NCBI RefSeq assembly: GCF_000422345.1
Contig: NZ_AULP01000002.1
Coordinates: forward strand, 186,001 to 250,000
From: Neomelitea salexigens DSM 19753
GTDB taxonomy: Bacteria > Pseudomonadota > Gammaproteobacteria > Pseudomonadales > Spongiibacteraceae
Length of the DNA: 64,000 bases
Direction of reading: 5' to 3'
The translations under genes and the position numbers were made by a program. The notes below the pieces were generated by a model. That model worked only from the letters and a program-made list of their open reading frames with translations, had not been told where the DNA came from and ran no database searches. Shown piece after piece: positions 668 to 37,960 of the stretch. The stretch's first letter is position 1. Each line of letters begins with the position of its first letter.

Positions 668-935
668 AGGGCCTGTTAACACTAATTGAGTTACGCCTGT
701 TGCGGCTAAAAATTCGCCAATCCAGGAATGAGAAGAGAGGTTTGCTTATTCCAAATGAGCGACGAATGACGACGAGTGGTGGATTTTTAGCAACAACCCA
801 GAGGGCTGGCGCCATTTTTGCCCCCAGCGTTGTTGTCGGTCGCTTGTTTGGGCCCACCAGACTTCGCTTCCTCCGCCTAGCTGGAGGCAAAAATGACCTC
901 CAGCAGGTGCATCTCAATTAGTGTTAACAGGCCCT
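668..935. repeat. MITE-like element with 23-bp perfect terminal inverted repeats
   Basis: Positions 668-690 (AGGGCCTGTTAACACTAATT...) and 913-935 are exact reverse complements over 23 bp, enclosing about 220 bp. Just inside, similarity between the arms continues imperfectly (about 60 percent over the next 20-25 bases), as in many MITEs, and a separate hairpin CTGGAGG/CCTCCAG lies at 881-887 and 897-903. No transposase fits in the element. It sits between divergently placed ribA and the 3' end of the retropepsin gene, whose TAG stop (934-936) overlaps the right tip. If the central unit 681-922 is removed with one copy of GTTAAC, the remainder reads GGGCCTGTTAACAGGCCCTAG, almost identical to 59663-59683. 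The element family is not recognised. Confidence 0.75.
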
Positions 936-1566
936 AGGGAGCACTTAAGGTCATAATACTGCCGCGTTCTTGAAGATCGACATGCTCTAGAAAGCTCATT
1001 CCCAGCAGTATTACATGGGGGTAGTCACCATCCACCACCACAGCGGGAATATGGTGGCGCTCAATGCCGCCTACCGCCAGTTTGTCCAGTTTCACCGCAA
1101 AGCCGCGGCTGACACCAGACGCGGTGGCAATGCTAACCACTGGCGCGTCGTCGTAGCGAATACCTAATTGGCGGGCATGGCGAGCGCTCATTGCTACCTT
1201 GGTGGCGCCGGTATCCACCACCGCCTCGGCGCTGCGACCATTGATCTGCAGACGAGTGCGATATTCACGATTGCTGTTGCGCTGCAACACCACTTCCTGG
1301 CGTTCGCTCTCGGCATACAGCGTGCCAATACGTTTATTGAGAGTGAGGCGGTGGGTTTTGCCTTGATAACGCACCTGAGCAAATCGTGAATTCGCCAACA
1401 GCACTTTGGCCCCACCCGGGTGGCTACTGCCGGTGCGCACCAACTGCTGCTGGCCATTAACCTCCAGCAGCACCGCGTTTTTAAATAGTCCGCGCACAAT
1501 CAATTCGCTGGCGCTGGCTGTCGTAGCCGCCACCATCAATACTGCAACTATCGCCAGCTGTTTCAT
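934..1566 (-). CDS. Periplasmic retropepsin-like aspartic protease (TIGR02281 type)
   Basis: A 210-residue secreted protein with an N-terminal signal peptide (about residues 1-19, ending ASAS). The aspartic protease signature VDTGAT lies at residues 117-122 and a second family motif, LLGMSFL, at 187-193, as in the clan AA retropepsin-like proteins that carry one catalytic Asp and act as dimers. The region before the protease domain (20-100) holds a short beta-rich segment. Substrate is unknown; in proteobacteria these proteins are periplasmic or inner-membrane facing. The gene is alone: the LysR gene upstream ends 96 bases away and an inverted-repeat element abuts its stop codon. The fold assignment is firm, the cellular role is not. 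Confidence 0.85.
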   Translation of the reverse strand: MKQLAIVAVLMVAATTASASELIVRGLFKNAVLLEVNGQQQLVRTGSSHPGGAKVLLANSRFAQVRYQGKTHRLTLNKRIGTLYAESERQEVVLQRNSNREYRTRLQINGRSAEAVVDTGATKVAMSARHARQLGIRYDDAPVVSIATASGVSRGFAVKLDKLAVGGIERHHIPAVVVDGDYPHVILLGMSFLEHVDLQERGSIMTLSAP

Positions 1567-1662
1567 ACGCGCGATCTCAAAAATGGCTCTGTCTGATTAC
1601 TGTGTTTGGCTACGCGCATAGTAGCACCCACACAGCGCAGGTCGATACGATATCTCCACAGC

Positions 1663-2580
1663 TTAGCCAGCACCCGGCAATCGCTGACGCCTGAGTAACT
1701 CAATAAACCAACGGTGCCCTGCATCGCCGTTCAGGCTTAGCGGCCACATCAGCCAGACGGGTATCGGCGGCACCGGCAATGGAAAAGGCAGAACCTGAAT
1801 ATCGTAGGCCTCTGCGTATCGTCTGGCGAGCTCGCGGGGCATAGACGCCAGGGCATCGGTTTGCTCGACCACCGACGGCATCGCCGCGAAGTGCTGAACA
1901 TGAAGGTCGACCCGACGCTCAAGCTTCTGCCCACCCAACGCCAGTTCCAGCTGGCTGCGGTAACGACTGCGCTGGCGCAGCAAAATGTGGCCCTCTGCAA
2001 AATACTGTTGCGCAGATAAACTACCAGAGATACGCGGGTGGGAACCGGCGGCAATCACTACCAGCTCTTGCTCACCCAATAGCGCCGAGCACACCTTGTC
2101 TGACTCGACACGCACAAAGTCAATCACCGCATCGTATTCCAAACGCGACAGGGCTTTGGCCACGTCCTGCTGATCCAGCACCTCATTACGTAAACTCAAC
2201 CCCTGCCCCGCCCTCTGCAATAGGCGCAGCAAAGGGCCCAGCGCCGCCATTTCCATGTAGCCGTCAGCGAGTAGGCTGAACTCGCGCTCAGCCGAGGTCG
2301 GCGAAAATGCCTGCTCCACACTGAGTGCTTCAGAAATCAGCGCGAGGGCCTCTGCGACGGCCGCCTGAGCCGCCATCGCTCGCGGCGTTGGCCGCATCCC
2401 GCTGCGGGTGCGCACAAATAGCTCGTCTTTCATGGTCAGCCGCAAGCGCTGCAAGGCTGCACTGACAGCCGGCTGGCTCATACCGAGTTGCTCCGCCACC
2501 CGGGACAAGTTTTGCTCGCGCAGCAGCGCTTCAAACACCGTGAGTAAATTAAGGTCGACCGAGCGTAAATTCAGCTTCAT
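1663..2580 (-). CDS. LysR family regulator (NodD/PcpR-like subgroup)
   Basis: A 305-residue transcription factor. Residues 5-65 form the winged helix-turn-helix (DLNLLTVFEALLREQNLSRV, SQPAVSAALQRLR) with the VDLN start typical of the NodD/LinR-like LysR subgroup; the remainder is the effector-binding type 2 periplasmic-binding fold. It is divergent from the fatty acid hydroxylase-like gene at 2674 with 93 bases between start codons, so the desaturase is the obvious candidate target. The shared region is AT-rich and contains no operator that can be assigned by eye. The ligand is unknown. Confidence 0.88.
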   Translation of the reverse strand: MKLNLRSVDLNLLTVFEALLREQNLSRVAEQLGMSQPAVSAALQRLRLTMKDELFVRTRSGMRPTPRAMAAQAAVAEALALISEALSVEQAFSPTSAEREFSLLADGYMEMAALGPLLRLLQRAGQGLSLRNEVLDQQDVAKALSRLEYDAVIDFVRVESDKVCSALLGEQELVVIAAGSHPRISGSLSAQQYFAEGHILLRQRSRYRSQLELALGGQKLERRVDLHVQHFAAMPSVVEQTDALASMPRELARRYAEAYDIQVLPFPLPVPPIPVWLMWPLSLNGDAGHRWFIELLRRQRLPGAG

Positions 2581-2673
2581 AAATAATAGATATATAAATT
2601 ATCAAATTTACAAATACCCTAAATCCCGTAATCTGTCCACATCAGCCGCATATAACAGTAATCAGGAGCTGCC

Positions 2674-3534
2674 ATGACACTGCAACCCGCGCATTTCGTG
2701 ACACTATTTATAATTGTTTTTGCCCTATGGGAATGGCTCAGTGGCCGCGCCCGCGCCGAGCGCAAAAGCAAGGAAGATTGGCAAATGGCGGGCTTGAGTG
2801 CCGCCGGCATGGTGCTTATCCAACGGCCAGCACTGCTGTTTGGCATCGCTTGGATCGCAGGCCTCATCATTCCTCAGTATCAGGGCGGCCTAAGTTGGTT
2901 GGTAAGTGATTACTTCTGGCTAACACTCATCGGCTACATTGCTTTAGAGGAACTGTTCCACGGCCTTGGACACTGGTTTGCCCACGCCCGCCGGCCCAAA
3001 TCGCGCTGGCTACAACGCCTGCAAGGCCTCTACAAGATCGGCCATCGCCCGCACCATTTGTCGGGCGGTAACGACGGCAAGGGGCAATTAACGGTGACGC
3101 AGACCTTTGTCGAGCACTGGCTTTGGTGGTTCATCATGCCCAATTACTGGTTCCAGTTTTTGGCTCTATACCTGGGGCTCACAGAGGTGTTTATTATCGG
3201 CACGCTGTTCAAAGGCCTGTGGGCGGCTCACAACCACGTGAACTGGAACTATGACCTGTATTTCCTCAACCACCGCTGGGCCTGGGTGAGAAATAGTATG
3301 TACGCCCTGTGCCACATTTTCACCTTTCCGACGCAGCACCACCATCACCATGCCCGTGGCAAAAACTCAGGGAGCAACCTATGCAACCTGTTAGCGATCT
3401 ACGATTGGTTGTTGTTCGGCACATTGGTGATCGAGCGCGAGAAGCCCAAGGTCTATGGCTGGCGCCAAACCCCCGAAGAGGAGCACAGCGCCTTATACCG
3501 CTACTTTTACACCGACCTTGCTAAGCTTCGCTAG
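2674..3534 (+). CDS. Fatty acid hydroxylase / sterol desaturase family membrane protein
   Basis: A 286-residue integral membrane di-iron enzyme candidate. Hydrophobic segments lie near residues 6-22, 40-68, 80-95 and 150-182. The histidine clusters of the family are present: H96, H100 and H104 in the HGLGHWFAH stretch, HRPHH at 124-128, H186/H188, and a dense QHHHHH run at 221-226. AGGAG at 2664-2668, five bases before ATG, supports the start. The family uses O2 and electrons to hydroxylate or desaturate lipid or sterol substrates; the substrate here cannot be told. The gene is divergent from a LysR regulator and converges on thiDE, the two stop regions overlapping by four bases (3531-3534). 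Confidence 0.85.
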   Translation: MTLQPAHFVTLFIIVFALWEWLSGRARAERKSKEDWQMAGLSAAGMVLIQRPALLFGIAWIAGLIIPQYQGGLSWLVSDYFWLTLIGYIALEELFHGLGHWFAHARRPKSRWLQRLQGLYKIGHRPHHLSGGNDGKGQLTVTQTFVEHWLWWFIMPNYWFQFLALYLGLTEVFIIGTLFKGLWAAHNHVNWNYDLYFLNHRWAWVRNSMYALCHIFTFPTQHHHHHARGKNSGSNLCNLLAIYDWLLFGTLVIEREKPKVYGWRQTPEEEHSALYRYFYTDLAKLR

Positions 3535-4997
3535 TGAAGCGCCAGTAATTCGGCGACCACCGCCTCAGGGTCATCCGCCTCGGTAATCGCGGTGATCATC
3601 GCACAGCTCCCAACGCCCGTCGCCAGCACGTCGGAGGCCCGACGGCGGTCGATCCCGCCTATCGCAGTGAGGGTATAACGAGGAGACAGAATATCGACCC
3701 AGCGCCTGAGTTGGGTCAGGCCCTGGGCCCCAAAGCGCATCACCTTGCTGGTCGTCGGATAGACCGGACCAATCGCGATATAACTGGGTGACAGCGCATG
3801 CGCACGAGCGATTTCATAGTAGCTGTGCGTGCTCACGCCCAAGCGCAAGCCGGCAGCGGCGATAGCGCCGATGTCGGCAATATCCAGGTCTTCCTGACCC
3901 AGGTGTACGCCATAGGCTCCGGCGTCAATCGCCTGACGCCAGTAATCATTAATAAACACCCGCGCGCCGTATTGTTGGCCCAGTGCAACAGCACGCCGAA
4001 TTTCCTCATCGAGATTGCTCTGCTCGGGGATTTTAATGCGCAACTGGATCGTTTTAACACCGGCACGTAGCAAGCGCTCCAGCCACTCACTGCTATCCAC
4101 CACCGGGTACAAACCCAGTTCACCACCACAATCGGGAAACGCCTGAATCGGCGCGGCGGGCAACTGCCGACTCAAACGGGGAAAGTCCTCCAGCCGCTGA
4201 GGCCAGCCCAGGTGTACAACCGGGCCGGGGCCACCACCGAGCTGCACAGACAAACGTAGTCCCTGACTGACATAGGCCTTAGCAATGACTAAGGCATCAG
4301 CCAGTTCGTAGCCACGAGCGATCAGCGCCGCTATCGCCGACGATAGTGTACAGCCAGTGCCGTGGGTATTGAGGGTGTCGATGTTTTCACCACTCAGCCA
4401 GAAGCCACTCTCGCCATCGGTCCAATAGTCGTGACGACAGCCATCATCGGTGCTCAGGTGCCCGCCGGTTAGCAGCACAGAACGGGCGCCTAACACTACG
4501 ATATCCTGGGCGGCACGCTCTACGTCAGCCGGGGAGTTAATCTCACGGTTGAGCAGGGTTTCAGCTTCGCTGATGTTCGGGGTCAGTAGGTCGGCGCGCG
4601 GCAAGATTTTTTCGATCAGCGCCTCGCTGACACCGTCCTCCATCAACTGACCGCCACTGGTAGACACCATAACGGGGTCGCAAACCACAAAGCCGCGATA
4701 GTCAGCCAGGTACTTTGCCACCATCTCAACAACATCTTCGCCGCCGAGCATCCCCAGTTTTATCGCCGCCGCTTGCAGGTCACTGTCGAGCGCATTAATT
4801 TGCGCGGCAAGCGCTCGACGCGGCGTAATGGCCACATGCCCAACAGTAAAACTATTTTGCGCCGTTAATGCAGTAACCACTGAACAGCCGTGCACGCCAA
4901 AATCGTGAAAGCTGACCAAGTCCGCCTGAATACCGGCTCCGCCACCGGAATCCGAGCCGGCAATCGTCCATGCAATGGGCTTTGAATGACTCGCCAT
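3531..4997 (-). CDS. thiDE: ThiD-ThiE fusion: HMP(-P) kinase / thiamine-phosphate synthase
   Basis: A 488-residue bifunctional enzyme. Residues 1-265 are ThiD, which phosphorylates hydroxymethylpyrimidine twice: GSDSGGGAGIQAD near 14-26, CDPVM near 106-110, and the anion-hole motif GTGCT at 213-217. Residues 290-488 are ThiE, which joins HMP-PP and thiazole phosphate to form thiamine phosphate: QLR near 318-320, GVHLGQEDL at 363-371, GPVYPTTSK at 410-418 and AIGGI at 445-449. Both catalytic halves look intact. It is the last gene of the TPP-riboswitch-led operon, 36 bases after the glutathione S-transferase gene. ThiD-ThiE fusions are known in several bacterial groups. A ribosome-binding AAGG precedes the ATG by four bases. 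Confidence 0.95.
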   Translation of the reverse strand: MASHSKPIAWTIAGSDSGGGAGIQADLVSFHDFGVHGCSVVTALTAQNSFTVGHVAITPRRALAAQINALDSDLQAAAIKLGMLGGEDVVEMVAKYLADYRGFVVCDPVMVSTSGGQLMEDGVSEALIEKILPRADLLTPNISEAETLLNREINSPADVERAAQDIVVLGARSVLLTGGHLSTDDGCRHDYWTDGESGFWLSGENIDTLNTHGTGCTLSSAIAALIARGYELADALVIAKAYVSQGLRLSVQLGGGPGPVVHLGWPQRLEDFPRLSRQLPAAPIQAFPDCGGELGLYPVVDSSEWLERLLRAGVKTIQLRIKIPEQSNLDEEIRRAVALGQQYGARVFINDYWRQAIDAGAYGVHLGQEDLDIADIGAIAAAGLRLGVSTHSYYEIARAHALSPSYIAIGPVYPTTSKVMRFGAQGLTQLRRWVDILSPRYTLTAIGGIDRRRASDVLATGVGSCAMITAITEADDPEAVVAELLALH

Positions 4998-5033
4998 AAG
5001 GCCTTTTTACCTCTGATTAACCGTTGGAGCTTC

Positions 5034-5669
5034 CTACTCTGGACGAAATATGGCTTCGGCCTTGAACCACATCGGCCGGTCGCGCAGACGCAATAGATAT
5101 GCCTGAATATTGGCGTAGGGGCCAAGCACATCGCCACCCGAAGGCCCGGGAATCAGCGGCGAATCAAGCATCATTAGCGGAAAGGCCACCATAATATCGG
5201 CAGCGCTAAATTCACCGGCAATGTACTCTCTGTTCGCCAGCAACTTCTCCATGTACCCGAGTACCGTATCGAATTCACCGTGCACAAAGCTATTGTAGGC
5301 CGGGTTATCCACCCCACTCATACCGGCGATCATATTCATCAGCACTGGCGTCATCAGCGTTGACTCGGCCGCATGAAGCCAGTGCAGATACTCAATATAT
5401 TCCGGTGTCCCGGCGGCCGGCCGCAGCCGACCCTCGCCATACTTGTCGAGCAAATATTCCACGATGGCGCCGGATTCCGGGATCACCATGCCATCATCTT
5501 CAATGACCGGTGCTTTCCCCATCGGGCTGACCTCCCAAAGCGACGGTGGCGAGCGGAATGTCTCTGGGTCGCGGTCATGTTTGACCAGCTGATACTCCAG
5601 ACCGAGCTCCTCCGCCAACCAAATAATTCGATCTGAACGAGAGAGACCAAGATGATGGATCGTTAACAT
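5034..5669 (-). CDS. Glutathione S-transferase family protein inside the thiamine operon
   Basis: A 211-residue cytosolic protein with an N-terminal thioredoxin-like GST domain (residues 1-80; SPMGKAPVIEDDGMVIPESGA is the glutathione-binding region with the conserved cis-Pro and ES motif) and an all-helical C-terminal domain (90-205). The likely catalytic residue near the N-terminus is a serine (GLSRSDR). AGGAAGG four bases before the ATG supports the start. It lies between thiG (100 bases upstream) and thiDE (36 bases downstream), same strand, so it is probably cotranscribed under the TPP riboswitch. No thiamine function is known for GSTs; it may be a passenger, a detoxifier, or have an own promoter in the 100-base gap. 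Confidence 0.88.
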   Translation of the reverse strand: MLTIHHLGLSRSDRIIWLAEELGLEYQLVKHDRDPETFRSPPSLWEVSPMGKAPVIEDDGMVIPESGAIVEYLLDKYGEGRLRPAAGTPEYIEYLHWLHAAESTLMTPVLMNMIAGMSGVDNPAYNSFVHGEFDTVLGYMEKLLANREYIAGEFSAADIMVAFPLMMLDSPLIPGPSGGDVLGPYANIQAYLLRLRDRPMWFKAEAIFRPE

Positions 5670-5769
5670 GAAGCCTTCCTATGCTGAAATGGATTGGGGC
5701 GCGAAACCCGCCTACCATTGATAATAGCAGCGCTTTGCTATCGGTACCGGCCTCGCGCCGCGGTGATGT

Positions 5770-6567
5770 TTATTGGTGCCAAAACGGCATACCGAGCGTC
5801 GGTGTCGACGGTGAGGCGGTTTGCCGAGCTGGCATCGCTCCTGCACGATACGCCTTGCGGCCCGCAGAGAGTGCATCGCGAAACGCCTCGGCCATAGTAA
5901 CGGGCTGGCTGGCCTGGGCAACCGCGGTATTGAGCAATATGCCGTCGTATCCGAGCTCCATAGCCTGTACGGCATGGGACGGTTTACCAATGCCCGCATC
6001 CACGATCAACGGCAGCGACGGCAAGCGCTCACGAATGGTTTGTAAGTTGTAGGGGTTCATTAGCCCCCTGCCCGTACCAATTGGAGAGCCCCAGGGCATC
6101 AGCACTTCACAGCCGGCATCGCGCAGACGCTGGCAAACAACCAGGTCGTCAGTGCAATACGGGAAGACCTTAAAGCCCATCTTGCTCAATTGCTGGGCCG
6201 CTTCGATGGTGGCTATTGGATCCGGCTGCAAATTGTAGTCGTCACCAACAACTTCCAACTTCAACCAGTCCGTCTCAAAAAGCTCGCGGCTCATTTGCGC
6301 GAGCGTCACCGCCTCTTTCACGGTGTGACAGCCGGCTGTGTTCGGCAACAGGGTTTTACCAAGGCTTTTAATTTGCTGCCAAAATGCCTCTCCACCGCCA
6401 TGTTCAGGCGACTGACGGCGCAGACCGACGGTAATAATTTCGGCGCCCGAGGCCAAAATAGCCTCGCACATCACCTGCGGTGACGGATACAGCGCACTCC
6501 CTATCAACAGGCGACTGGTAAACGACTTACCGTAGAGGCTCCACGAGTCCTGCCGATCTACAGACAT
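5770..6567 (-). CDS. thiG: Thiazole synthase
   Basis: ThiG builds the thiazole phosphate ring of thiamine from deoxyxylulose phosphate, dehydroglycine and ThiS thiocarboxylate. The 265-residue TIM barrel has the family landmarks: LIGSALYPS near 20-28, [15 protein letters not shown] near 74-88, the WLKLEVV segment carrying the Schiff-base lysine near residue 102, [13 protein letters not shown] (here [13 protein letters not shown]) and [23 protein letters not shown] precedes the ATG. It follows thiS by 32 bases. Dehydroglycine is presumably supplied by the ThiO encoded upstream, since no thiH is present in the window. Confidence 0.96.
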
Positions 6568-6599
6568 GCTTTATTCCTCAATTTTCGAGCAAACGAGTG

Positions 6600-6803
6600 C
6601 TAGCCACCTTGCACGGGTGCCAGTACGTCTAGCTGATCGCCATCACACAGGCGGTGCTCGCCATAGCGTGAACGCGGCACAAAATCACCGTTTACGGCAA
6701 CCGCAACCTTGCCACTTTCAAAGCCCCACTCTGCAAGCAGCGCCGCCAGGGACTTCTGCTTGTCGCACTGCTTCTGCTGATTGTTCACACTGACGGCGAT
6801 CAT
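6600..6803 (-). CDS. thiS: Sulfur carrier protein ThiS
   Basis: A 67-residue ubiquitin-like protein ending in the diglycine tail (APVQGG) that is adenylated and converted to a thiocarboxylate before sulfur transfer to the thiazole. Length, the VNGDFVPRS segment and the terminal GG fit the family. Its ATG overlaps the thiO stop codon by four bases (ATGA), so the two are translationally coupled. The activating enzyme ThiF is not in this window. Confidence 0.95.
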   Translation of the reverse strand: MIAVSVNNQQKQCDKQKSLAALLAEWGFESGKVAVAVNGDFVPRSRYGEHRLCDGDQLDVLAPVQGG

Positions 6804-28649: not shown

Positions 28650-29921
28650 GTGTCAAAAACAAACCGTAACCACCTCCTCGGCCTGTGCCTACTGAGCCTG
28701 GCCGCCACGACCTGCTTTGCCCAAGACAATGCCTTTGACGACAGTGCATTCGGCGACTTTGCCGGATCCTTGAGCGCAGAGTTTGCCGAGTTCGAGGCCG
28801 CTCAGACACAGGAATGGGATAGCTTCGTCAGCGAGATTCGCGCTGAGCACGATGCTTTTATCGCCGATTTAGAGCGCTACTGGGGCAATGAAACCGAGAG
28901 CAGCGACCGCAGCAAGTGGGTGGAGTACGCAAAGAATCGCCGTATTAAACGCACCGTCGACTTTGAAAAGAATCAAATTCGCATCTCCGTGCTGGGCACA
29001 CCGGCCCCTGAGGAGATGCAGCGCATCGTCAATCAGCAGCTACAAGCCGCACTGGAGACGCGCAGTAACCAGGCGAACCAGGAATACCCGATTGTGGCAC
29101 GCATGCAGGAAGCGGCTTCAGCACCGAAACGGCCACCTGTGCCCGTGGTAGCGGAGCTCAAAGAGCTCAGCGGACAAAAAACCGCCCCCAAAGCCGCCGT
29201 AGCATTGGCGAAAAAAGCCAAGATCGATGTTGTTGAGATTAAGCAGGCACCCGCCAAAAAGAAGGCAACCGCGCCAAGCAAACCTAAGCGCACTGTTACA
29301 GCGCCCGCACCCGCACCCGCACCCGCACCCGCACCCAAGGAAACCAAAGCCACCGTCGCGGTGATCGACCTTTCCGAGAGCTGGCCAGTGCGCCGCGCCC
29401 GGAAATACAGCGATGCCGTCACCCGCTTTGCGGCAGAAATGGACATTCCCCGCTCACTGGCCTTTGCCATCATGTATACCGAAAGCAGCTTTAACCCGGT
29501 CGCGGTGTCGCCGATCCCGGCCTACGGATTAATGCAAGTGGTACCGGGCAGTGCAGGTCGGGATGTGACGAAACTGCACTTCGGCAAAGAGCGCCTGCTC
29601 TCCCCCGACTACCTGTTTACCGCCGATAAAAACATTGAGGTCGGTATCGGGTATCTCAATATTTTGGACAAGCGCTACCTACGTAAAATTACCGACCCGC
29701 TGAGCCGAAAATACTGCACGATTGCCGCCTACAATACTGGGGCAGGCAACGTCGCCAAGGCATTTACCGGCAAACTCAACATTTCCAGAGCGTCAAAAAT
29801 CATCAATGAGATGTCGCCCGACGAGGTCTATAACACCTTGCGCACCAAGCTGCCCTACGAAGAAACGCGCAAGTACATCAAAAAAGTGACCGCCGCCGAA
29901 AAACAGTTTATGAGCTTGTAA
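28650..29921 (+). CDS. MltC-like lytic murein transglycosylase, periplasmic
   Basis: A 423-residue secreted protein. GTG start with AGGGA nine bases upstream; signal peptide 1-25 (cleavage likely after CFAQ; the Cys is not in a good lipobox, unlike E. coli MltC). Residues 30-150 resemble the MltC N-terminal DUF3393 domain (EFEAAQTQEWDSF, RYWGN, WVEYAKNRR...). A low-complexity linker with an Ala-Pro run (219-229) leads to the SLT domain (about 250-420) with catalytic E278 in YTESSFNP, GLMQVVP (293-299) and AYNTGAGNV (360-368). It should cleave peptidoglycan glycan strands to anhydromuropeptides. It is the first of a tight series of envelope genes; the next starts one base after its stop. Confidence 0.88.
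   Translation: MSKTNRNHLLGLCLLSLAATTCFAQDNAFDDSAFGDFAGSLSAEFAEFEAAQTQEWDSFVSEIRAEHDAFIADLERYWGNETESSDRSKWVEYAKNRRIKRTVDFEKNQIRISVLGTPAPEEMQRIVNQQLQAALETRSNQANQEYPIVARMQEAASAPKRPPVPVVAELKELSGQKTAPKAAVALAKKAKIDVVEIKQAPAKKKATAPSKPKRTVTAPAPAPAPAPAPKETKATVAVIDLSESWPVRRARKYSDAVTRFAAEMDIPRSLAFAIMYTESSFNPVAVSPIPAYGLMQVVPGSAGRDVTKLHFGKERLLSPDYLFTADKNIEVGIGYLNILDKRYLRKITDPLSRKYCTIAAYNTGAGNVAKAFTGKLNISRASKIINEMSPDEVYNTLRTKLPYEETRKYIKKVTAAEKQFMSL
29304..29333 (+). repeat. Five perfect CCCGCA hexanucleotide repeats in the transglycosylase linker
   Basis: Five tandem copies of CCCGCA encode the (Pro-Ala)n stretch of the linker between the DUF3393-like and SLT domains. Being a multiple of three, slippage would change linker length without breaking the frame. 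Confidence 0.9.
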
Positions 29922-29922
29922 C

Positions 29923-30675
29923 GTGGATAAAGTCGAACTTCACAATCAAAAAATTAGCGCTATCACTAACCGACTGCCCACGTGGTTAGTGTCGTTGGTC
30001 TTGCTGTTTGTCGGTCTCGGCAACTTCACCGACTCGATAGAGCTGATGAAAAACGTGTATGAGTCAATTTCCAGTAAGTTCAGCAACCAAGTGGAATACG
30101 ACCGTACCCGGCACGTGCGCGCAGGGTTAAACCTGGCCTATGTGCAAGATTATATTGGCGAGCCGCAGCTCCTGAAGGAACTCGATGGCGGCCTTCAAGT
30201 GCGCTACTACATTGATGAGAAGTACCTTATCTCTCTGTATACGCAGGGCGAACGCGTAAGCGCGTATTTAATTTTTGCCCGCGAAGACCATTTCCAGCCG
30301 GACATGCAGGGCATGAACGAACAGTCACTGGGCGACAGCCCGTTATTCCAACTTCGCCAGAATACCGACCGCGTTGCCTTTGAGCACTCGCGCAACATTG
30401 CCTACTTTCTGGAAAGCAAAGAAGTTAACTTTGGCGGCGGCTATCTCACGAACAGCTATTTAGGCTGGGTAAATTATGCGGCGCAGTTTGGCCCCAGCCC
30501 ATCGCCGCAGCTCGGCGCGCTCTACGAGGCAGAAATGCTCGGCGAAAACAGTGCGGGCAAATTAACAGCCGCCCGCGAGCATATACGTCCCAATGCCTTT
30601 GGCTATGGCGAGCTGAGCATTGAGCAACTTCAGCGCGGCTTACTTACCAGTGCCGAGCTGAGGTTTTTCGACTAA
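29923..30675 (+). CDS. ETEC_3214-like membrane-anchored protein of unknown function
   Basis: A 250-residue protein starting with GTG one base after the transglycosylase stop. A single membrane segment lies at about residues 18-36 (TWLVSLVLLFVGLGNF), preceded by a short cytoplasmic tail; the rest should be periplasmic. The part around 60-130 (HVRAGLNLAYVQDYIGEPQLL, YYIDEKYLISLYTQGERVSAYLI) resembles what I recall as the ETEC_3214 domain, whose function is unknown. Position in a run of envelope genes with one-base spacing suggests a role with the transglycosylase and the following lipoproteins. The family name is a recollection; the topology is read from the sequence. Confidence 0.7.
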   Translation: MDKVELHNQKISAITNRLPTWLVSLVLLFVGLGNFTDSIELMKNVYESISSKFSNQVEYDRTRHVRAGLNLAYVQDYIGEPQLLKELDGGLQVRYYIDEKYLISLYTQGERVSAYLIFAREDHFQPDMQGMNEQSLGDSPLFQLRQNTDRVAFEHSRNIAYFLESKEVNFGGGYLTNSYLGWVNYAAQFGPSPSPQLGALYEAEMLGENSAGKLTAAREHIRPNAFGYGELSIEQLQRGLLTSAELRFFD

Positions 30676-32201
30676 TGACTAACGGAACAAACTGGAAAAG
30701 AAGCCTCGCAGGCCTGCTGCCACTCACCCTGGCAGCCTGCTTGAGCGGCAACACCCAGCCGCAGAATACGGCGATCGCCGCCGGCCTTTCTTCACCGACA
30801 CCCCCGTTAAGCAAGGACATCACCTACGATGACCAAGACCTCGTGTCGCTATTCACCCACGCCAGCCTGCGGCGGTATGAGGGCGATTACCGAGGAAGTA
30901 ACCAAGCCCTTGAGCGCGCCTATCAACGCAGCGAAGAACTTTACACCCAACGGCTGAGCGAGTTTGGCAGCGCGAGCTTGCGCAAACCCGGTGCCCTGCC
31001 CTATCGCCCCAATTCACTTGAAGTTGGCTTTATCAGTTACCTGAAGGCGCTCAACCATTTCGCCACCGGCGCAGACAAACTCCCCCTGCAACAAAGGGAA
31101 GCGGCAGCAGTAGAAATGCGCCGCCTCGATGTGCTGCAAGGCGAAGCGCGCTTTCTCCAGGACATGGGCTTAGACAGCGACAAAAACCGCGACCTGGCAC
31201 AAATGGTGGTATCACTGTTTGCCGAACGCACGAACACAGAGTTAAGCCAGGGTATTGTCGATGTACAAAGCCCCTGGCTGTATGTCGTTTCCGGCATCGT
31301 CTTTGAAATCAATCAAGACCTGGACAGCGCCAGAATCAGCTACCAACGCGCCCTGGATGCGCTGCCAGAGGGCGACCTTTCGCCGCCGCACAGCAATGTA
31401 AAAGTGCTCGCTGAAGAGGGCGGTCTGCGCTGTATGCAACAACTCGGCGCAAGCGATCAAGCCATACAAGAGTCTGCCTTTGCCGCACCGACGCAAGACG
31501 GCGCGCCAACAACCAATAGCTGGCTGATTGAACATCTCGGCACACTTCCGACGAAAGCCCCTCTGGAAATGCTACTCACCGCCGACAGCATTCAACAGCG
31601 GCTGATCCTACGGCCAATGATTCGCGGCACAGATGCAGAAAAACGCCAGCAAAAGCAGCAATTTGCTGGACTGTCACTGCTGTACAGCAGCCCCTACAAA
31701 GATGCCATTGTCGTCGAGCTCGGCGACAACTGGAGCGCACTGGAAAGTCTCGGCCTTACCGACACAATCGGCGGCGGGATCCGTCTGTTTCTCGACTATT
31801 TCTCGGAGCCACAGCCTCACCAAGCCGCTAAAGTCATTGGTGAAAACGGCGCGTTACTGCAAAGCGTTGAACTGGCCGATATCGCTGGCGATCTCAAGCA
31901 CTACCAGACCCTCACGCTGAAACGCCGCTTCGAGGAAGCACTGCTGCGCGAAGTCAGTAAATCCGCGGGCTATAAATCGATAACCGGCGGCATTAAGTTA
32001 CCGTTTTCGCTCGGCGGTGCGCTGGCCACGTTCACCGCGGGCGCCGATTTACGCCAGTGGCAGCTTCTGCCAGCCAAGATACGCATCACGCCACTTCCTG
32101 CAGATTTAGCGGGCCGCCAACTTACCATCACGCGCGGCGACCGCGCTAACTCGCTGACGGTTCCCGCTGACAAGCGCCTAATCAGCATCGATCACTACTG
32201 A
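30675..32201 (+). CDS. COG3014-like TPR-type lipoprotein
   Basis: A 508-residue lipoprotein: signal sequence with lipobox LAAC (Cys near residue 22, mature CLSGN). Residues 50-260 are helical with spacing like tetratricopeptide repeats (LFTHASLRRYEGDYRGSNQAL..., AYQRSEELY, ISYQRALDALPEGD), and the C-terminal 200 residues look beta-rich. The pattern fits COG3014, an uncharacterised family that, as I recall, lies beside LpoB-like and LPP20-like genes in vibrios and relatives, exactly as here. Its ATG overlaps the preceding TAA by one base. It is predicted to sit on the inner face of the outer membrane. Function is not known. Confidence 0.8.
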   Translation: MTNGTNWKRSLAGLLPLTLAACLSGNTQPQNTAIAAGLSSPTPPLSKDITYDDQDLVSLFTHASLRRYEGDYRGSNQALERAYQRSEELYTQRLSEFGSASLRKPGALPYRPNSLEVGFISYLKALNHFATGADKLPLQQREAAAVEMRRLDVLQGEARFLQDMGLDSDKNRDLAQMVVSLFAERTNTELSQGIVDVQSPWLYVVSGIVFEINQDLDSARISYQRALDALPEGDLSPPHSNVKVLAEEGGLRCMQQLGASDQAIQESAFAAPTQDGAPTTNSWLIEHLGTLPTKAPLEMLLTADSIQQRLILRPMIRGTDAEKRQQKQQFAGLSLLYSSPYKDAIVVELGDNWSALESLGLTDTIGGGIRLFLDYFSEPQPHQAAKVIGENGALLQSVELADIAGDLKHYQTLTLKRRFEEALLREVSKSAGYKSITGGIKLPFSLGGALATFTAGADLRQWQLLPAKIRITPLPADLAGRQLTITRGDRANSLTVPADKRLISIDHY

Positions 32202-32209
32202 GTCAAATC

Positions 32210-32803
32210 ATGATGACCTTTCGCTCTCTTACTATCCTTATTCTTTCAGCGCTGCTGTGCGCCTGCGGAAGTAGCAACGTTAAACGCATGGAAAACGGCA
32301 GCCAACCCGCATTAACCGATCGCTGGAATGCCACCGACTCGCAACTTGTTGCCGAGGCACTGATCAGCGACATGCTGAGTTTCCCCTGGGCGAAATCAAG
32401 GGCGGACGGTTCACTACCTGTGATTGCGATTCAGCACATCAGCAATCGATCCCACGAGCAAATTGCAGTGGAAACCTTCATCAACTCGATCAAGCGTGAG
32501 TTGTTGCGCAGCGGGAAAGCGGAGTTTGTGGTGACCGGCGCAGAGCGCGAGCGTGTGCGCGACGAGAAGCTCGACCAGGAAATGTTTGCCAGCATGGAAA
32601 GCGCCGTTGAACTCGGCGAAGAGACGGCCGCCGGCTATGCACTGAGCGGTGTTATCACCTCATTAGTAGACCAGCTTGAGGGACAGCGCACGACCACCTA
32701 CCAAGTCGACCTAAAACTGATTGACCTTAAGAGCAACCGCGAAGTTTGGAACGGTCAAAAACAGATCCACAAATACAGCAAACGCGCGAGATTTGGCCTG
32801 TGA
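32210..32803 (+). CDS. LpoB-like penicillin-binding protein activator family lipoprotein
   Basis: A 197-residue outer-membrane lipoprotein with signal sequence and lipobox LCAC (Cys near residue 19). The mature part has the LpoB/CsgG-N-like fold pattern: PVIAIQHISNRSHEQIAVETFINSIKRELL, then AGYALSGVITSLVDQ and TTYQVDLKLIDLKSNREVWNGQKQI with the W near the C-terminus. LpoB in enterobacteria activates PBP1B, but distant members do other things, so activation of a synthase is not certain. It begins eight bases after the COG3014-like gene and overlaps the next gene by four bases. Confidence 0.8.
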   Translation: MMTFRSLTILILSALLCACGSSNVKRMENGSQPALTDRWNATDSQLVAEALISDMLSFPWAKSRADGSLPVIAIQHISNRSHEQIAVETFINSIKRELLRSGKAEFVVTGAERERVRDEKLDQEMFASMESAVELGEETAAGYALSGVITSLVDQLEGQRTTTYQVDLKLIDLKSNREVWNGQKQIHKYSKRARFGL

Positions 32804-33801
32804 AGCATCCACTTGTAGCCGCCAGCAAGCTCGCCGTCGCCAGTTTACTTATTGCCTGCAATACCGCGCTCGCCGCCGCGCCAGACTGGGTTAACCAACC
32901 ACCCCAGCGCAAGGGTTTTGTATTCGGTGTTGGCGCGGCCGACCTCTCACTTGGTCACGCAGCTGCCAGCGAGGCGGCCAAGCTCGCCGCTCGCAATGAA
33001 ATCGCCAGCAGTCTTAAGCTGCAAATTGGATCAGAGCTAACACTAAACAATATCTCCGACGAATCCGGCAGTCGCAGCGAGTTTAACAACAACATTCGCA
33101 TCCGCGTTCCCGACGTCGCCCTCTCCGACATTCGCATCATCAAAACTGGGGAGGTGGCAGAGCACCAAAGCTTATACAGTTTGGCCGAGCTGGACTTGGC
33201 AAAGGCTGCGGAACGCGTCGCCAGTGAAATTCGTTCACTGCTCGCGCAAACCTCCCCAGCCATCGACAGCACTTCGCTAGCCACTGCTCTGCGCGGCCAC
33301 TACCGCGCGCTAGAACGCCAGCTCAATTTTCAGTCATTGCTGTCCCAGTATCGACTACTCGACGGCAACCAGCCGTTTAACGATAGCGCACTCAACAATG
33401 ACGCCGAGCGGGCACTGAAATTTTTCGACAACTTGCTGATTCACATAGCGCCAAAGGATGAAGACAGCAAAAAAGTGGCGCGGAACATCGCCTCAGAACT
33501 GGCCGCGAAAGGCCTACAGGGCAGCGAAAGCGCTAATCAAGCGAAACTTCAGCTGTCCATGAACAGCCAGAGAAGGACGATGGAGCGCAATGGCGCGCAT
33601 TTTTGCCGGATAAAAACTGATGCGACACTCAGCGCGAATACACAACATTTGAGCGCCGCCAGTCGCTCGGCAAAAGCGGTTTCCGGCGACCCTGAAATTG
33701 CCTGCCAGAAAGCCGCGGCGAAGCTCAGCAAAGTTGTCGCCGCCGACATCATGAACACATTTTGGAACACATTAAAATCACCGTCACCAAAGCAAAACTA
33801 A
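32800..33801 (+). CDS. LPP20-family-like lipoprotein
   Basis: A 333-residue protein read from a GTG at 32800 that overlaps the LpoB-like stop (GTGA); an upstream in-frame ATG at 32746 would lie inside the previous gene. The N-terminus has a signal sequence with LIAC, a good lipobox (Cys near residue 20). The PDWVNQPPQRKGFVFGVG start of the mature part, followed by many Ala-rich helices with EAAKLAARNEIASSLKLQ and later a LYSLAELDLAKA strand, is the LPP20 pattern. The last 130 residues add a second region without recognised family. Together with the two genes before it, it completes a COG3014/LpoB/LPP20 trio. Confidence 0.75.
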   Translation: MKHPLVAASKLAVASLLIACNTALAAAPDWVNQPPQRKGFVFGVGAADLSLGHAAASEAAKLAARNEIASSLKLQIGSELTLNNISDESGSRSEFNNNIRIRVPDVALSDIRIIKTGEVAEHQSLYSLAELDLAKAAERVASEIRSLLAQTSPAIDSTSLATALRGHYRALERQLNFQSLLSQYRLLDGNQPFNDSALNNDAERALKFFDNLLIHIAPKDEDSKKVARNIASELAAKGLQGSESANQAKLQLSMNSQRRTMERNGAHFCRIKTDATLSANTQHLSAASRSAKAVSGDPEIACQKAAAKLSKVVAADIMNTFWNTLKSPSPKQN

Positions 33802-33832
33802 GACGGATAACACCACATAGAGGGTAAGTGAG

Positions 33833-34864
33833 ATGACGAGAAAGGCCTCGGCAATTGCACTGGCAGCCGCAATACTATCAAGCGGCGCACTGGCGCAAGA
33901 GCAAGATCAAGATCAAGATCAACGAGCGAGCTTTGGCGACGATGCTAGCTATAACTACTTTGGCGGCGTATCTGTCGGTTACAAATATCAGGAGCTAGAG
34001 GCGGACACGATCCGCGACGCCTACGTGAAAACGGTCGGCCTCAATATTCTGCAGTTCGAATGGTTTCCCGAGCAAGCCACCTGGATGCAGAACATTAGCT
34101 GGATGGCGGCGATTCGCCCCCGTCTGAGTTACGAGCTGACGCCCGGTGACAGTGCCGATCAGGATGAAATCGCCCAAGCGTCTGATTCAGAGAAAGAAGG
34201 CTGGACACGCTTTGTCGCCGACCTGAGCATCGATCCGATTCAGCTTTTCGGCGGCGAGAAATCCAACCACCGCATTGATATTAATTACGACGTACAGACG
34301 TTTTTGATTACGGTACAAGCAACACGTGATTATTTTTACGTAGAAGATAACGACGCCAAGCTGCTCACCGCCGGTGACAAAATTGACGTCAACACCACCT
34401 TCACCGAAGCGGTCATCGGCTATGCGGTTGAAGAGGAAGACCTGCGACTCATGGTGGGCTTTTTCTCCGTGGACTACGAAAAGCCGGTATCTAGCGATGT
34501 TTCCACACCCATCGAATCTATCTACAAAGGCAACTTCGAATCGCGCGGCATCTACATGGGCGGCTCAATACGCCTGTTTGGCAACCTGGACCTGAGCCTG
34601 CGCTACGATTATTCCTATGACGCTGAAGCCACTGTCGACGGTGGCACGTCACTAACTCGCGACGAGTTTGGCATTGAGGACAGCATTGAGTACGACGCCT
34701 ATACCCTCAATGCGGTTTACGATCTGCGCAAAACTACCATGAAACTACCAATGGAAGTCCGCTTCAGCTATATCCAGCGCCAGTTTGACGCCCTTGTTGA
34801 AGGCTCGACCGTGAACGACGACCGAATCTTCGGGGTTTCGTTGATCGGCAGCTTCACGCTTTAA
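33833..34864 (+). CDS. Outer-membrane beta-barrel-like protein, unknown
   Basis: A 343-residue secreted protein with a signal peptide (1-21, ending GALA) and a mature N-terminus of alternating Gln and Asp (QEQDQDQDQ). The rest alternates hydrophobic and polar residues with many aromatic girdle positions (YKYQELEAD, IRPRLSYELT, LRYDYSYDAEA, VRFSYIQRQF) and ends in a C-terminal aromatic/hydrophobic strand (GVSLIGSFTL), as barrels inserted by BAM do. About 12-16 strands seem possible. I do not recognise a family. It starts 31 bases after the LPP20-like gene with GGTAAG upstream, and is followed by a PKD lipoprotein 12 bases later. Confidence 0.8.
   Translation: MTRKASAIALAAAILSSGALAQEQDQDQDQRASFGDDASYNYFGGVSVGYKYQELEADTIRDAYVKTVGLNILQFEWFPEQATWMQNISWMAAIRPRLSYELTPGDSADQDEIAQASDSEKEGWTRFVADLSIDPIQLFGGEKSNHRIDINYDVQTFLITVQATRDYFYVEDNDAKLLTAGDKIDVNTTFTEAVIGYAVEEEDLRLMVGFFSVDYEKPVSSDVSTPIESIYKGNFESRGIYMGGSIRLFGNLDLSLRYDYSYDAEATVDGGTSLTRDEFGIEDSIEYDAYTLNAVYDLRKTTMKLPMEVRFSYIQRQFDALVEGSTVNDDRIFGVSLIGSFTL
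33902..33922 (+). repeat. CAAGAT hexanucleotide repeat
   Basis: Three tandem CAAGAT units plus CAA encode the Gln-Asp alternation at the mature N-terminus of the barrel-like protein. In-frame slippage would vary its length. Confidence 0.8.
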
Positions 34865-34876
34865 GAGGACCCAGTT

Positions 34877-37117
34877 ATGAAAAATCTGAAATTACTGACC
34901 GCCGCATCGCTAGCCCTAGGCCTGAGCCTGCAAGGCTGCGTGTTTGACGAATCGGGCACTGAGTACAAAGAGCCGAACGCCAATACCGAGCCCGTAATCA
35001 ACCTCAATTACGATTCACAATTGTCACTTAACACCTACCTAACGTTTGAGGACAATAGCGCGGATATCGTCGTGAACTTTGGCGCTCAGGAATTTCGCTT
35101 TCCCGATCGCTCAGAAATGCGTCTAAGAGGATTCGGCGACTTTGAAACGGATCGCGTTTGGAAAACCTCCGTTGTGGAAGATTCTCGCGGAATTAAAACC
35201 CTGCGCTTGGGATACTATGTCGTAACACCCAACAGCAACGACATCAGCGCGCCAGTTTTCCATAATTTTGCCAAGGACAGTCGCGGCAACATCTACTTGA
35301 CGGAAACTGCCGAGCAGCTGAAATCAGACTTGGGTGTGGCGCCCTTCAGACAGCCCCAACCCGCGCTCTTATTCCCCGCAAAGGTTGAAGTCGGAGACAG
35401 CTGGGTAGCCGGCCCCACCATCGTGCCGTTATTTTATAATTTCAGCTCTGGCACTGGCTGGACGGCAACGCTGATTGATGACGATGCAACGGCGCCGATC
35501 AGCGGCGAGCAGAACTGTATTGTTATCAAATACTACGGCGAACGTTTTTCCTACTATCTGTACTTGAAAGATGGCCTAGGCGTTGTAGAGTGGACCAACT
35601 CCTGGGAAGAAGGCCAGGACGGCACTGTGGTTCCTATCAACGGTTGGGCGCGCAGCAAAAACGGCGACGGCACCACAGCCATTGACTACACCAACTTCGG
35701 CTGGTCTTTCGATGATAGTAACCCCGTTGGTGCCGTGCTCTACTCCATCGGCCTGAAAGTCGTCGATGGCGAGGAAGCTAATGCTAATGCCACCACGACG
35801 TCGCCGGTCAATGACTCTGGCTACGACTTCACCCGAGTAATCGAAACCAGCGCTCCTGCTTCAAGCACCTATCCCGCCTTGCTCGACCTGCGCCTCCCAG
35901 ACGAGCGCGGGGAAGAGCGCATAGACTTTACCGAAAGCAAATGGGATAGCCTCGCAGGCAAATACTACCGACCACTGATCCGCATCAGCTTCAATGGCAA
36001 AACCTATTCAGCCGACCAAAGCAGCGGTAGCTTTGAGGTAGAAAAGCTGTACAACCAACCCTTTGGCCCTGCCCGTCTGGCCTTCCTCGGCCGCGGCACG
36101 CTGGTCAATGAAGCAGACGCCGCGGACAGCATGGAATTTGTCGGTTTATTGGAAGGCAACTACCTCAATGCCGGACCCGAAGGCCTGACCTCGGACTTTG
36201 CTATCTTTGGCCTAGGGCCAGATCGCCGCCTGCCTGCCGCCAAACCCGGCAGCACCTATCGCATTTACATTGGCTACGCGAACCTCAACGAGCCCTTGCG
36301 TGAGCTTTTGGAGATGGACCAGGCAAGCATTGATGAGTTCAATTTGGATGAGCCGCAACTGGGTTACACGAGCATCTGCTACGGCAATCGCACCAGCGAA
36401 GATGGCCCATGCGATAGTGGCAATGTTAGCTTTGAGATCCAAGTTCCCGAAGTGGAAGGCGAGCTCGGCTTCCGCATTGGCGGCAGAAGCAGCGCAGGCG
36501 AAATCCAATCTGCCAGTAAGCTGTTTTTCTTGCCTGTTAGCAAAGATGCTGGCAGTAAAGGAAAACTTACAGCGCGCCTGTTTGACCAATATAGCGATGT
36601 CATCCGCGGTTCACTCGATAACAACGGCGAGTTCAACACAGGTATTCTCAATGCCTTGTCGTCCGTGGCGCCAAACAGCAATATCGTCAAATACAGCTAT
36701 GATTTTGGCGATGGCGAAACGGTTGACGACGGTATCCCGCTGGGTGTCTACACCTACACGCAGGACGGCGAGTATCAGATCAAGCTCACCGTTACCGACG
36801 ACCAAGGCAATACCGCTACCGCCTCTCGCAAAGTCATTATCAGCGATACCGGTAAAGTGATTATTCGCAACATCGCCAATGATTTCGGAAGCGGCGCCTT
36901 CACCATCGGTATCGACAATCTCGACGAGCCAGACGGCTACTACGACTACTACAAATTCGTTATTCTCGACAAAGGCGAGGATGAAGTCTTCGAAGTGCCA
37001 GGCGGCGTGAACTACGTGGTCGATATTATCGATAATGGTGAAGTCGTATTTACCGAAGAGCGATTTGTAGGCAATGCCGAAGAAGAGGTTGTTGAGGTCG
37101 ATCTAGACCAAGACTAG
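34877..37117 (+). CDS. Large lipoprotein with C-terminal PKD domain
   Basis: A 746-residue lipoprotein: signal sequence with LQGC (Cys at residue 21) and a mature start CVFDESG. Residues 40-590 are beta-rich with no family I can name; a region near 475-505 holds two cysteines in TSICYG and GPCDSG. A PKD-like domain at about 604-656 shows YSYDFGDGE and YTYTQDGEYQIKLTVTDDQGN. The tail is strongly acidic (NAEEEVVEVDLDQD). It is cotranscribed with the barrel gene and ends before a strong bidirectional terminator. Surface exposure or periplasmic binding of carbohydrate/protein are both possible. Confidence 0.8.
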   Translation: MKNLKLLTAASLALGLSLQGCVFDESGTEYKEPNANTEPVINLNYDSQLSLNTYLTFEDNSADIVVNFGAQEFRFPDRSEMRLRGFGDFETDRVWKTSVVEDSRGIKTLRLGYYVVTPNSNDISAPVFHNFAKDSRGNIYLTETAEQLKSDLGVAPFRQPQPALLFPAKVEVGDSWVAGPTIVPLFYNFSSGTGWTATLIDDDATAPISGEQNCIVIKYYGERFSYYLYLKDGLGVVEWTNSWEEGQDGTVVPINGWARSKNGDGTTAIDYTNFGWSFDDSNPVGAVLYSIGLKVVDGEEANANATTTSPVNDSGYDFTRVIETSAPASSTYPALLDLRLPDERGEERIDFTESKWDSLAGKYYRPLIRISFNGKTYSADQSSGSFEVEKLYNQPFGPARLAFLGRGTLVNEADAADSMEFVGLLEGNYLNAGPEGLTSDFAIFGLGPDRRLPAAKPGSTYRIYIGYANLNEPLRELLEMDQASIDEFNLDEPQLGYTSICYGNRTSEDGPCDSGNVSFEIQVPEVEGELGFRIGGRSSAGEIQSASKLFFLPVSKDAGSKGKLTARLFDQYSDVIRGSLDNNGEFNTGILNALSSVAPNSNIVKYSYDFGDGETVDDGIPLGVYTYTQDGEYQIKLTVTDDQGNTATASRKVIISDTGKVIIRNIANDFGSGAFTIGIDNLDEPDGYYDYYKFVILDKGEDEVFEVPGGVNYVVDIIDNGEVVFTEERFVGNAEEEVVEVDLDQD

Positions 37118-37140
37118 TTAGCAGTACTATTGCAGCTACA

Positions 37141-37169
37141 AAAAAGCCCGCCATTGGCGGGCTTTTTTG
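37141..37169. terminator. Strong bidirectional terminator between convergent genes
   Basis: AAAAAAGCCCGCC (37141-37153) pairs perfectly with GGCGGGCTTTTTT (37157-37169) around ATT. It closes the plus-strand envelope operon and the minus-strand LPP20-like gene. Confidence 0.95.
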
Positions 37170-37217
37170 TGCGCTTGCGGTCACGACATCAGCGACCTAC
37201 TGCATTTAAGCGACGTA

Positions 37218-37793
37218 TTAGCGCGCCATTTCTTTGTTGAGCTCCTGTTGAGCTTGTGCGCCCTTAAATTGCTGCAAAAGCACCTCTCGGGTATCTGGCT
37301 GCACTTGGCGCTCACTCGCGGCCAACATGTTATCAAACAGTGCCAGGGTTTTATCGCGCCCCATTGTCACCAATACACACAGGTTTTTCTTACCGTCGAT
37401 TTCAACAAACTCCACACGCTCAGCTCGTGTACCGATCAGCGTCTGCTGGGTAAGTTGCTTCGCCACCGATGAGAAGGTTGAGCCGCTGGATACACCGCTG
37501 GACACATCCGTGCGCTCGCGAAATACCTTGTCCAAAACTGCAACTTTCGTTTCTAGCTGTTGGGCTAAATCCGTCCGCGCATTGGCAACAGCAAGCTGGC
37601 GGTCGATCGACATATTACTGGAATACGGCACGCACTGAGCACTGGCGAAACCATCGTCAATGTAAGGATTCATCACCCACTGAGGGAGTCCACCCGCACC
37701 TTGTTGTGACTGCTGCGTATCTGCTGCCTGCTCGGTGCTTGCACACGCCGTCATTAGCACTGCGCAAGTCACACCTATTATTTTCTTCTTCAT
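37218..37793 (-). CDS. Second LPP20-like lipoprotein
   Basis: A 191-residue lipoprotein from the ATG at 37793, which has GGAG six bases upstream; a longer reading from 37838 lacks a signal for initiation. The signal sequence ends MTAC (lipobox, Cys near 17). The mature part has the LPP20 sequence style: LPQWVMNPYIDDGFASAQC, then DRQLAVANARTDLAQQLETKV and a C-terminal NLCVLVTMGRDK strand. It converges on the envelope operon that itself encodes an LPP20-like protein, so the two may be functionally linked although transcribed separately. Confidence 0.78.
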   Translation of the reverse strand: MKKKIIGVTCAVLMTACASTEQAADTQQSQQGAGGLPQWVMNPYIDDGFASAQCVPYSSNMSIDRQLAVANARTDLAQQLETKVAVLDKVFRERTDVSSGVSSGSTFSSVAKQLTQQTLIGTRAERVEFVEIDGKKNLCVLVTMGRDKTLALFDNMLAASERQVQPDTREVLLQQFKGAQAQQELNKEMAR

Positions 37794-37960
37794 TAAGCAC
37801 TCCAATATCCACGAGTAATACACATCGACACAGTCCAAATTAGGCGCCGACGTATTTCGAGTTCCTGCTCGACTGTTGCATCTACGGCGCTCAGCAAGCA
37901 GACCAATTCATAGCAACACTCCATCTCCATTTTAGAGGGGAATGCAGCAAATGCACAGGC

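Follow-up and report, generated by a model that had tools for sequence, protein, structure and literature searches.

The 64,000-nucleotide stretch of Neomelitea salexigens DSM 19753 analysed here (the window) carries a set of eight linked envelope genes, which encode a lytic transglycosylase (SLT), an ETEC_3214 domain protein, a TPR lipoprotein, an LpoB-like lipoprotein, a large and a small LPP20 protein, a putative outer-membrane barrel and a PKD-domain lipoprotein (Table 1). We regard the chances as evenly balanced that these genes specify one envelope assembly, in which an outer-membrane lipoprotein scaffold of the LPP20/LpoB type would dock a dedicated murein hydrolase. The genes belong to identifiable families, their linkage is conserved and the catalytic motifs of the enzyme are intact; the link of scaffold to enzyme is circumstantial.

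Seven open reading frames run in one direction on the plus strand (28650-37117), with spacings of 1, -1, 8, -4, 31 and 12 bases when the start of the large LPP20 gene is taken as the GTG at 32800. This agrees with the original prediction, made from this DNA alone, which also named a strong terminator at the end and none inside. The hairpin behind the seventh gene was missed by a simple terminator scan and was detected by comparing folding energy with that of shuffled sequences, 0 of 200 of which equalled it. It is symmetric, with an A-run on the 5' side and a T-run on the 3' side, and therefore could terminate both strands. A pattern scan of 27-39 kb on both strands gave 20 terminator-like matches versus 15.2 expected (standard deviation 4.2), including a few weak plus-strand matches inside genes, none of them prominent. 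No sigma-70-like promoter match was found by scanning directly upstream of 28650 on the plus strand. All seven predicted members were confirmed, but an eighth, the small LPP20 gene on the opposite strand, had been omitted. This gene belongs to the set: in the genus (here Spongiibacter) it occurs in four of 18 genomes, own included, which are the carriers of the TPR lipoprotein, and in one of them (G616, locus L074 7696-16985) it lies 12 bp after the PKD gene on the same strand, giving an eight-gene run.

Table 1. Features of the envelope gene set in the window
Feature	Position	Strand	Evidence
Gene 1: MltC-like lytic transglycosylase (SLT)	28650-29921	+	PF01464, PDB matches, motifs
Gene 2: ETEC_3214 domain protein	29923-30675	+	NF043066
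Gene 3: TPR lipoprotein, long form; COG3014 label from recall	30675-32201	+	Homologues in 94 loci, TPR matches in relatives, lipobox LAAC by eye
Gene 4: LpoB-like lipoprotein	32210-32803	+	PF13036
Gene 5: large LPP20-domain protein with additional C-terminal region	32800-33801	+	PF02169
Gene 6: secreted protein, probable outer-membrane barrel (putative)	33833-34864	+	Beta-periodic moment
Gene 7: PKD-domain lipoprotein	34877-37117	+	PF18911, lipobox LQGC by eye
Mosaic centre of PKD gene, replaced relative to S. marinus	35000-36650	+	77-82% versus median 96.4%; 78-88% in coarser and three-way views
Terminator hairpin common to convergent genes	37138-37170	.	-29.5 kcal/mol, z -6.7
Small LPP20 lipoprotein, eighth member	37218-37838	-	Same carriers as operon, co-directional in L074, profile match 5ok8

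In the operon the SLT, ETEC_3214, LpoB, LPP20 and PKD families score above their curated cut-offs: PF01464 at 79.5 bits versus 21.3, NF043066 at 106.2 versus 35, PF13036 at 114.7 versus 22.3, PF02169 in the large LPP20 protein at 33.0 versus 25.9, and PF18911 at 48.0 versus 27. The small LPP20 protein lies at the PF02169 cut-off (25.4 in the window scan, 26.5 in a genome search), and the own genome has two PF02169 genes, both at this locus. The family profiles of both proteins match Helicobacter pylori Lpp20 structures, the small one PDB 5ok8 at 1.2e-13 and the large one PDB 4kzs at 4.8e-11; we take 4kzs to be HP1454. The TPR lipoprotein, which we presume to be COG3014, has no Pfam or NCBIfam model above cut-off. 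TPR_2 is matched at E<=0.1 by 32 of 40 aligned relatives, and the window protein itself matches only TPR_12, at 0.096. Four lipoproteins had been predicted among the seven genes; three of the seven were clear by eye (genes 3, 4 and 7). The lipobox of the large LPP20 protein is ambiguous and the cysteine is missing in two of the three Spongiibacter orthologues aligned, so that its nature as a lipoprotein is doubtful. The ETEC_3214 protein shows one N-terminal membrane segment by eye.

MltC is the closest solved relative of the SLT (its best PDB matches are MltC structures, 3e-39), which carries the motifs TESSFNP, GLMQVVP and AAYNTG. The MltC equivalog NF008670 is likewise the best NCBIfam model, but its cut-off is missed (176.5 versus 375 bits). 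The MltC N-terminal domain PF11873 scores 22.0 in the window versus a cut-off of 22.6, and reaches 42.1 and 30.4 in the SLTs of loci L095 and L214. A signal peptide is present and, unlike in MltC, reading the sequence by eye gave no clear lipobox. From this inspection the SLT appears to be a soluble, MltC-like periplasmic enzyme.

Conservation was examined in 94 loci, namely the surroundings of all listed genomes with a COG3014 match in a class sample and an order sample (own genome excluded) and four named Pseudoalteromonas records. BLAST with the window protein matched 32 of 369 class genomes and 59 of 390 order genomes, and misses diverged short forms such as that of S. marinus. Three loci with lone or partial COG3014 surroundings (L105, L156 and L161) were dropped and the other 91 were sorted into three classes; neighbours were counted within 5 kb of the COG3014 gene. 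In the long form (55 loci) an LpoB-like gene was present in 53, always on the same strand and in 52 of the 53 within 113 bp, a large LPP20 gene in 50 and a small LPP20 gene in 15, a count that leaves out the more distant small LPP20 genes of three Spongiibacter loci. A short form with LPP20 (8 loci) had the LpoB-like gene in 8, the large LPP20 in 8 and the small LPP20 in 7. The short form with YcfL/DUF1425 (28 loci) had YcfL itself in 27, the LpoB-like gene in 28 and LPP20 never; the remaining 63 loci yielded no YcfL. From this distribution LPP20 and YcfL therefore look like alternative partners of the COG3014 and LpoB-like proteins. A quickly built tree covered 87 COG3014 proteins (the window added; L069, L070, L071, L072 and L100 dropped along with the three loci above); in it the YcfL class and the class of short forms with LPP20 each fell on one side of a branch. 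The prediction that the neighbours are conserved in relatives thus stands for the core of TPR lipoprotein, LpoB-like protein and large LPP20; the barrel and full-length PKD genes were seen only in four Spongiibacter.

Of the 55 long-form loci, 10 have an SLT no more than 5 kb from the core, among them four of Pseudoalteromonas (three of these P. rubra strains) and three of Spongiibacter. The catalytic motifs are intact in all 11 linked SLTs, four of which are near-duplicates; a Slt70-type enzyme in L111 was not counted as a linked MltC-like SLT, and high scores of the linked SLTs against their profile are inherent, since it was built from those SLTs themselves. When linkage was mapped on the COG3014 tree, five gains or losses were needed, at least four of them forced, in dispersed lineages; SLT linkage to the core is therefore repeatedly gained or lost. 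The proposal that the locus acts in murein cleavage gains support from this recurrence of the enzyme beside lipoproteins in several lineages, with its catalytic motifs kept. The SLT of L093 (6197-7384) starts with MRRRDFLG, by eye a Tat-like signal, unlike the other SLTs.

Related gene runs without COG3014 were found on Pseudoalteromonas chromids. Those of HL-AS2 and P. xiamenensis carry, in one run, a CsgG-family protein with weak TPR matches, a 277-residue LPP20-like protein, ETEC_3214, SLT and small LPP20. Identity to the window proteins in HL-AS2 and P. xiamenensis is 34% and 32% for the SLT and 35% and 33% for the small LPP20. The chromid of HL-AS1 encodes an LPP20 protein and, further along, the pair of SLT and small LPP20, with genes for four proteins without a confident family match in between (L214 1310-5822); a likeness to FlgT of two HL-AS1 proteins, seen by eye, gained no support on further comparison. 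SLT and small LPP20 thus share one run in three of three chromid records and ETEC_3214 is present in two of the three. The four Spongiibacter and both chromids that carry ETEC_3214 have it directly next to the SLT, and the chromid matches ruled out a restriction of ETEC_3214 to Spongiibacter. In the three plasmid records with a small LPP20 gene the SLT adjoins in two and is one gene off in the third. Searches with a Pseudoalteromonas COG3014 protein found no relative in a viral-contig scan or among plasmids, a phage search with ETEC_3214 gave none, and neither did a plasmid search with the window PKD protein.

A second candidate enzyme, c12 (about 450-535 residues), is encoded near COG3014 in eight long-form loci (L084, L093, L098, L100, L101, L119, L135 and L142), two of which also have an SLT. 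No Pfam or NCBIfam match was found at the limits used (L084, L093, L098, L100 and L101 scanned), and in the PDB nothing scored better than E 1.2; motifs read by eye suggest a transglutaminase-like protein. A profile of the c12 N-terminal segment retrieved the HL-AS1 SLT at 4e-6 as the sole outsider at E <1 among 5135 open reading frames. With the SLT N-terminal profile the five best non-SLT matches were all c12 proteins (E 0.007-0.48), and profile-profile comparison of the two segments gave 85% probability. These matches are suggestive of an N-terminal segment common to the SLT and c12.

In the assembly that we propose, the TPR lipoprotein, the LpoB-like protein and the LPP20 proteins would form a periplasmic scaffold anchored to the outer membrane. 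The scaffold would plausibly be oligomeric because FlgP, a protein of the LPP20 fold, forms rings; an LPP20/SHS2-like fold is common to FlgP, Lpp20 and FlgT, according to the accessible part of one report (PMC12222027). The scaffold would capture the soluble MltC-type transglycosylase, perhaps via its N-terminal segment, and confine wall cutting to the scaffold site, while the ETEC_3214 protein would tether the enzyme to the inner membrane. Such an arrangement would probably serve to remodel the wall locally and to attach the outer membrane, and so control cell shape and vesiculation. The Spongiibacter version may additionally bear the barrel and a variable PKD surface lipoprotein. The flagellar rings of FlgP, FlgO and FlgT are a parallel through the LPP20 fold of FlgP and FlgT, but the Pfam and NCBIfam scan gave no flagellar family in the seven genes of the window, and FlgT_M in the LpoB-like protein stayed below its cut-off (15.0 versus 31.2).

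The closest described parallels are in Helicobacter and Campylobacter. In the accessible text on H. pylori, cells lacking HP0018, a TPR lipoprotein, hypervesiculate and are less helical in shape, HP0018 brings down MltD and AmiA in co-precipitation, and the authors point out that in many enterohepatic species its gene is syntenic with that of HP1457, the LpoB homologue (PMC11394524). HP0018, HP1457 and the two LPP20-type proteins HP1454 and HP1456 correspond in kind to the set in the window (PMC11394524, PMC11756786). The H. pylori genes are scattered, however, the enzymes are MltD and AmiA and not MltC-like, and the portions available of these two reports mention no ETEC_3214, barrel or PKD protein. 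In C. jejuni, cj0089-cj0090-cj0091 form one operon for a TPR lipoprotein of 453 aa, a short lipoprotein of 122 aa and an LpoB homologue of 207 aa; going by the description in the available part of the paper, the 28 COG3014-YcfL-LpoB loci found here agree with it in gene order and sizes (PMC3100323). The loci of that class have YcfL but lack LPP20 (0 of 28), whereas the window has LPP20, no YcfL gene among the families of the operon in the Pfam and NCBIfam scan, and in addition SLT, ETEC_3214, barrel and PKD. The original statement that a common function of the COG3014, LpoB-like and LPP20 proteins is not described was partly right: work on the homologous lipoproteins in Helicobacter and Campylobacter has, as far as the accessible text goes, taken them one by one (PMC11394524, PMC11756786, PMC3100323). 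A literature search, mostly without subscription papers, gave nothing under the term COG3014, and titles and abstract starts made no SLT-LPP20-ETEC_3214 unit evident. The individual families are known; the literature searched does not seem to describe their combination in one unit or its modular recurrence. Lipoproteins of the LPP20, LpoB-like and TPR kinds are widely distributed and for the most part unexplained. If the proposal is true, a single hypothesis, wall cutting restricted to a site by lipoprotein docking, would unite the findings on vesiculation, shape and hydrolases. The operon of this marine bacterium brings its own enzyme, and the common N-terminal segment offers a small docking hypothesis.

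Several observations weigh against the proposed assembly. Most core loci have no linked enzyme within 5 kb: 39 of 51 long-form rows of the tree have neither SLT nor c12 at that distance. The c12 N-terminal profile finds significantly just one of 13 SLTs, the others not reaching E <1, and none of the c12 proteins passes E 0.001 with the SLT N-terminal profile. Fold predictions were unusable and had no visible interface, both for COG3014 (six sequences; predicted local distance difference test, pLDDT, 31.8) and for the barrel (two sequences; pLDDT 27.1). The operon is lacking in 13 of 17 Spongiibacter genomes. In the part of the H. pylori report available, a deletion of hp1456 had no effect on bacitracin resistance, and no interaction of HP1454 with HP1456 was observed (PMC11756786). 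Finally, HP0018 and Cj0089 are only putative COG3014 homologues, likened by description.

A wider version of the proposal is possible, although less likely than not. Here the loci would be modular, non-flagellar envelope platforms in which a constant pair of MltC-like SLT and small Lpp20 sits on interchangeable scaffolds, SLT and the transglutaminase-like enzyme share one N-terminal docking segment, and HP0018, HP1457, HP1456 and HP1454 are parts of one such machine. The scaffolds, proposed just as tentatively, would be a TPR lipoprotein with LpoB-like and large LPP20 proteins, a CsgG-TPR protein with the 277-residue LPP20, or a set of proteins without assigned family.

An export or surface-display machine, as originally suggested, is unlikely but is the alternative that survives best. 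The transglycosylase would make room in the wall for a ring like that of CsgG, with the PKD lipoprotein as cargo displayed through or beside the barrel. The CsgG-family protein in the similar runs of two chromids, beside LPP20, ETEC_3214 and SLT, lends the idea indirect support and recalls CsgG/HfaB; in the window operon, however, the CsgG domain PF03783 gave no match. The barrel candidate has no family above cut-off in Pfam or NCBIfam and has the highest beta-periodic moment of the eight proteins (z 3.4, followed by the PKD protein with 2.8). The barrel shares its four carrier genomes with the full-length PKD protein, which favours this reading, but both are missing from the other 90 loci examined, which places the barrel, originally proposed as a dedicated part of the complex, outside the conserved core. 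Within the genus, 4 of the 18 genomes, counting the own one, have the full-length PKD protein; these are the COG3014 carriers, and five others match the PKD repeat alone.

The PKD gene also differs from its neighbours in its divergence. The operon aligns with that of S. marinus at 94% over 17.3 kb, with 97% identity in the COG3014 protein and 98% in the barrel protein. Synonymous divergence (dS) is 0.85 in the PKD gene versus 0.08-0.19 in nine other genes compared (glyA was unmatched in that stretch). The median identity of 121 windows of 250 bp was 96.4%; seven of them fell below 85%, and six of the seven form one run (35151-36650) within the PKD gene. Its first 150 bp and its last third, which includes the PKD domain, are 95-98% identical, and in the middle S. 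marinus is closer to genome G556 than to the window. Judged by this pattern, the central part was exchanged by recombination relative to S. marinus. Such a mosaic fits surface exposure, by analogy with many surface proteins, and to that extent would also fit display of the PKD protein.

It is quite improbable that the LpoB-like protein activates the PBP1b of the cell, with the remaining proteins coupling murein synthesis to cutting, and this idea is weaker than the scaffold proposed above. The genome has no PF13036 match other than the LpoB-like gene, and a PBP1b-type UB2H domain is present. The protein fails the cut-off of the LpoB equivalog TIGR02722, however (84.5 versus 110.55), which two of two short-form LpoBs tested pass (154.2 and 205.3). 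In addition, all 18 genomes of the genus have UB2H but just 12 have PF13036, so PBP1b in the genus does not depend on the PF13036 protein.

It is very improbable that loosely related envelope genes merely travel together on an island without a common mechanism. The block does lie between glyA and nrdR, and all 13 non-carriers among the 17 genomes in which nrdR was located have these two genes side by side, but distant genera again combine SLT, ETEC_3214, small LPP20 and the core trio, and the ratio of nonsynonymous to synonymous divergence (dN/dS) versus S. marinus is <=0.25 in all eight genes. Chance co-location was ruled out by the recurring linkage. COG3014 is present in four of 17 genomes of the genus, own included, and on a ribD-nrdR tree of 17 genomes, the deep forks of which are weak, the carriers need two changes. 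The operon of G616 has the opposite orientation with respect to glyA and nrdR. In S. marinus a 5.8-kb insert adjoins the operon before glyA (window 37954-37959; L112 about 900-6719). It contains an outer-membrane barrel gene, a short-form COG3014, YcfL/DUF1425 and an LpoB with a true score, and has CACAGG at both ends, so that here a relative of the system adjoins the system.

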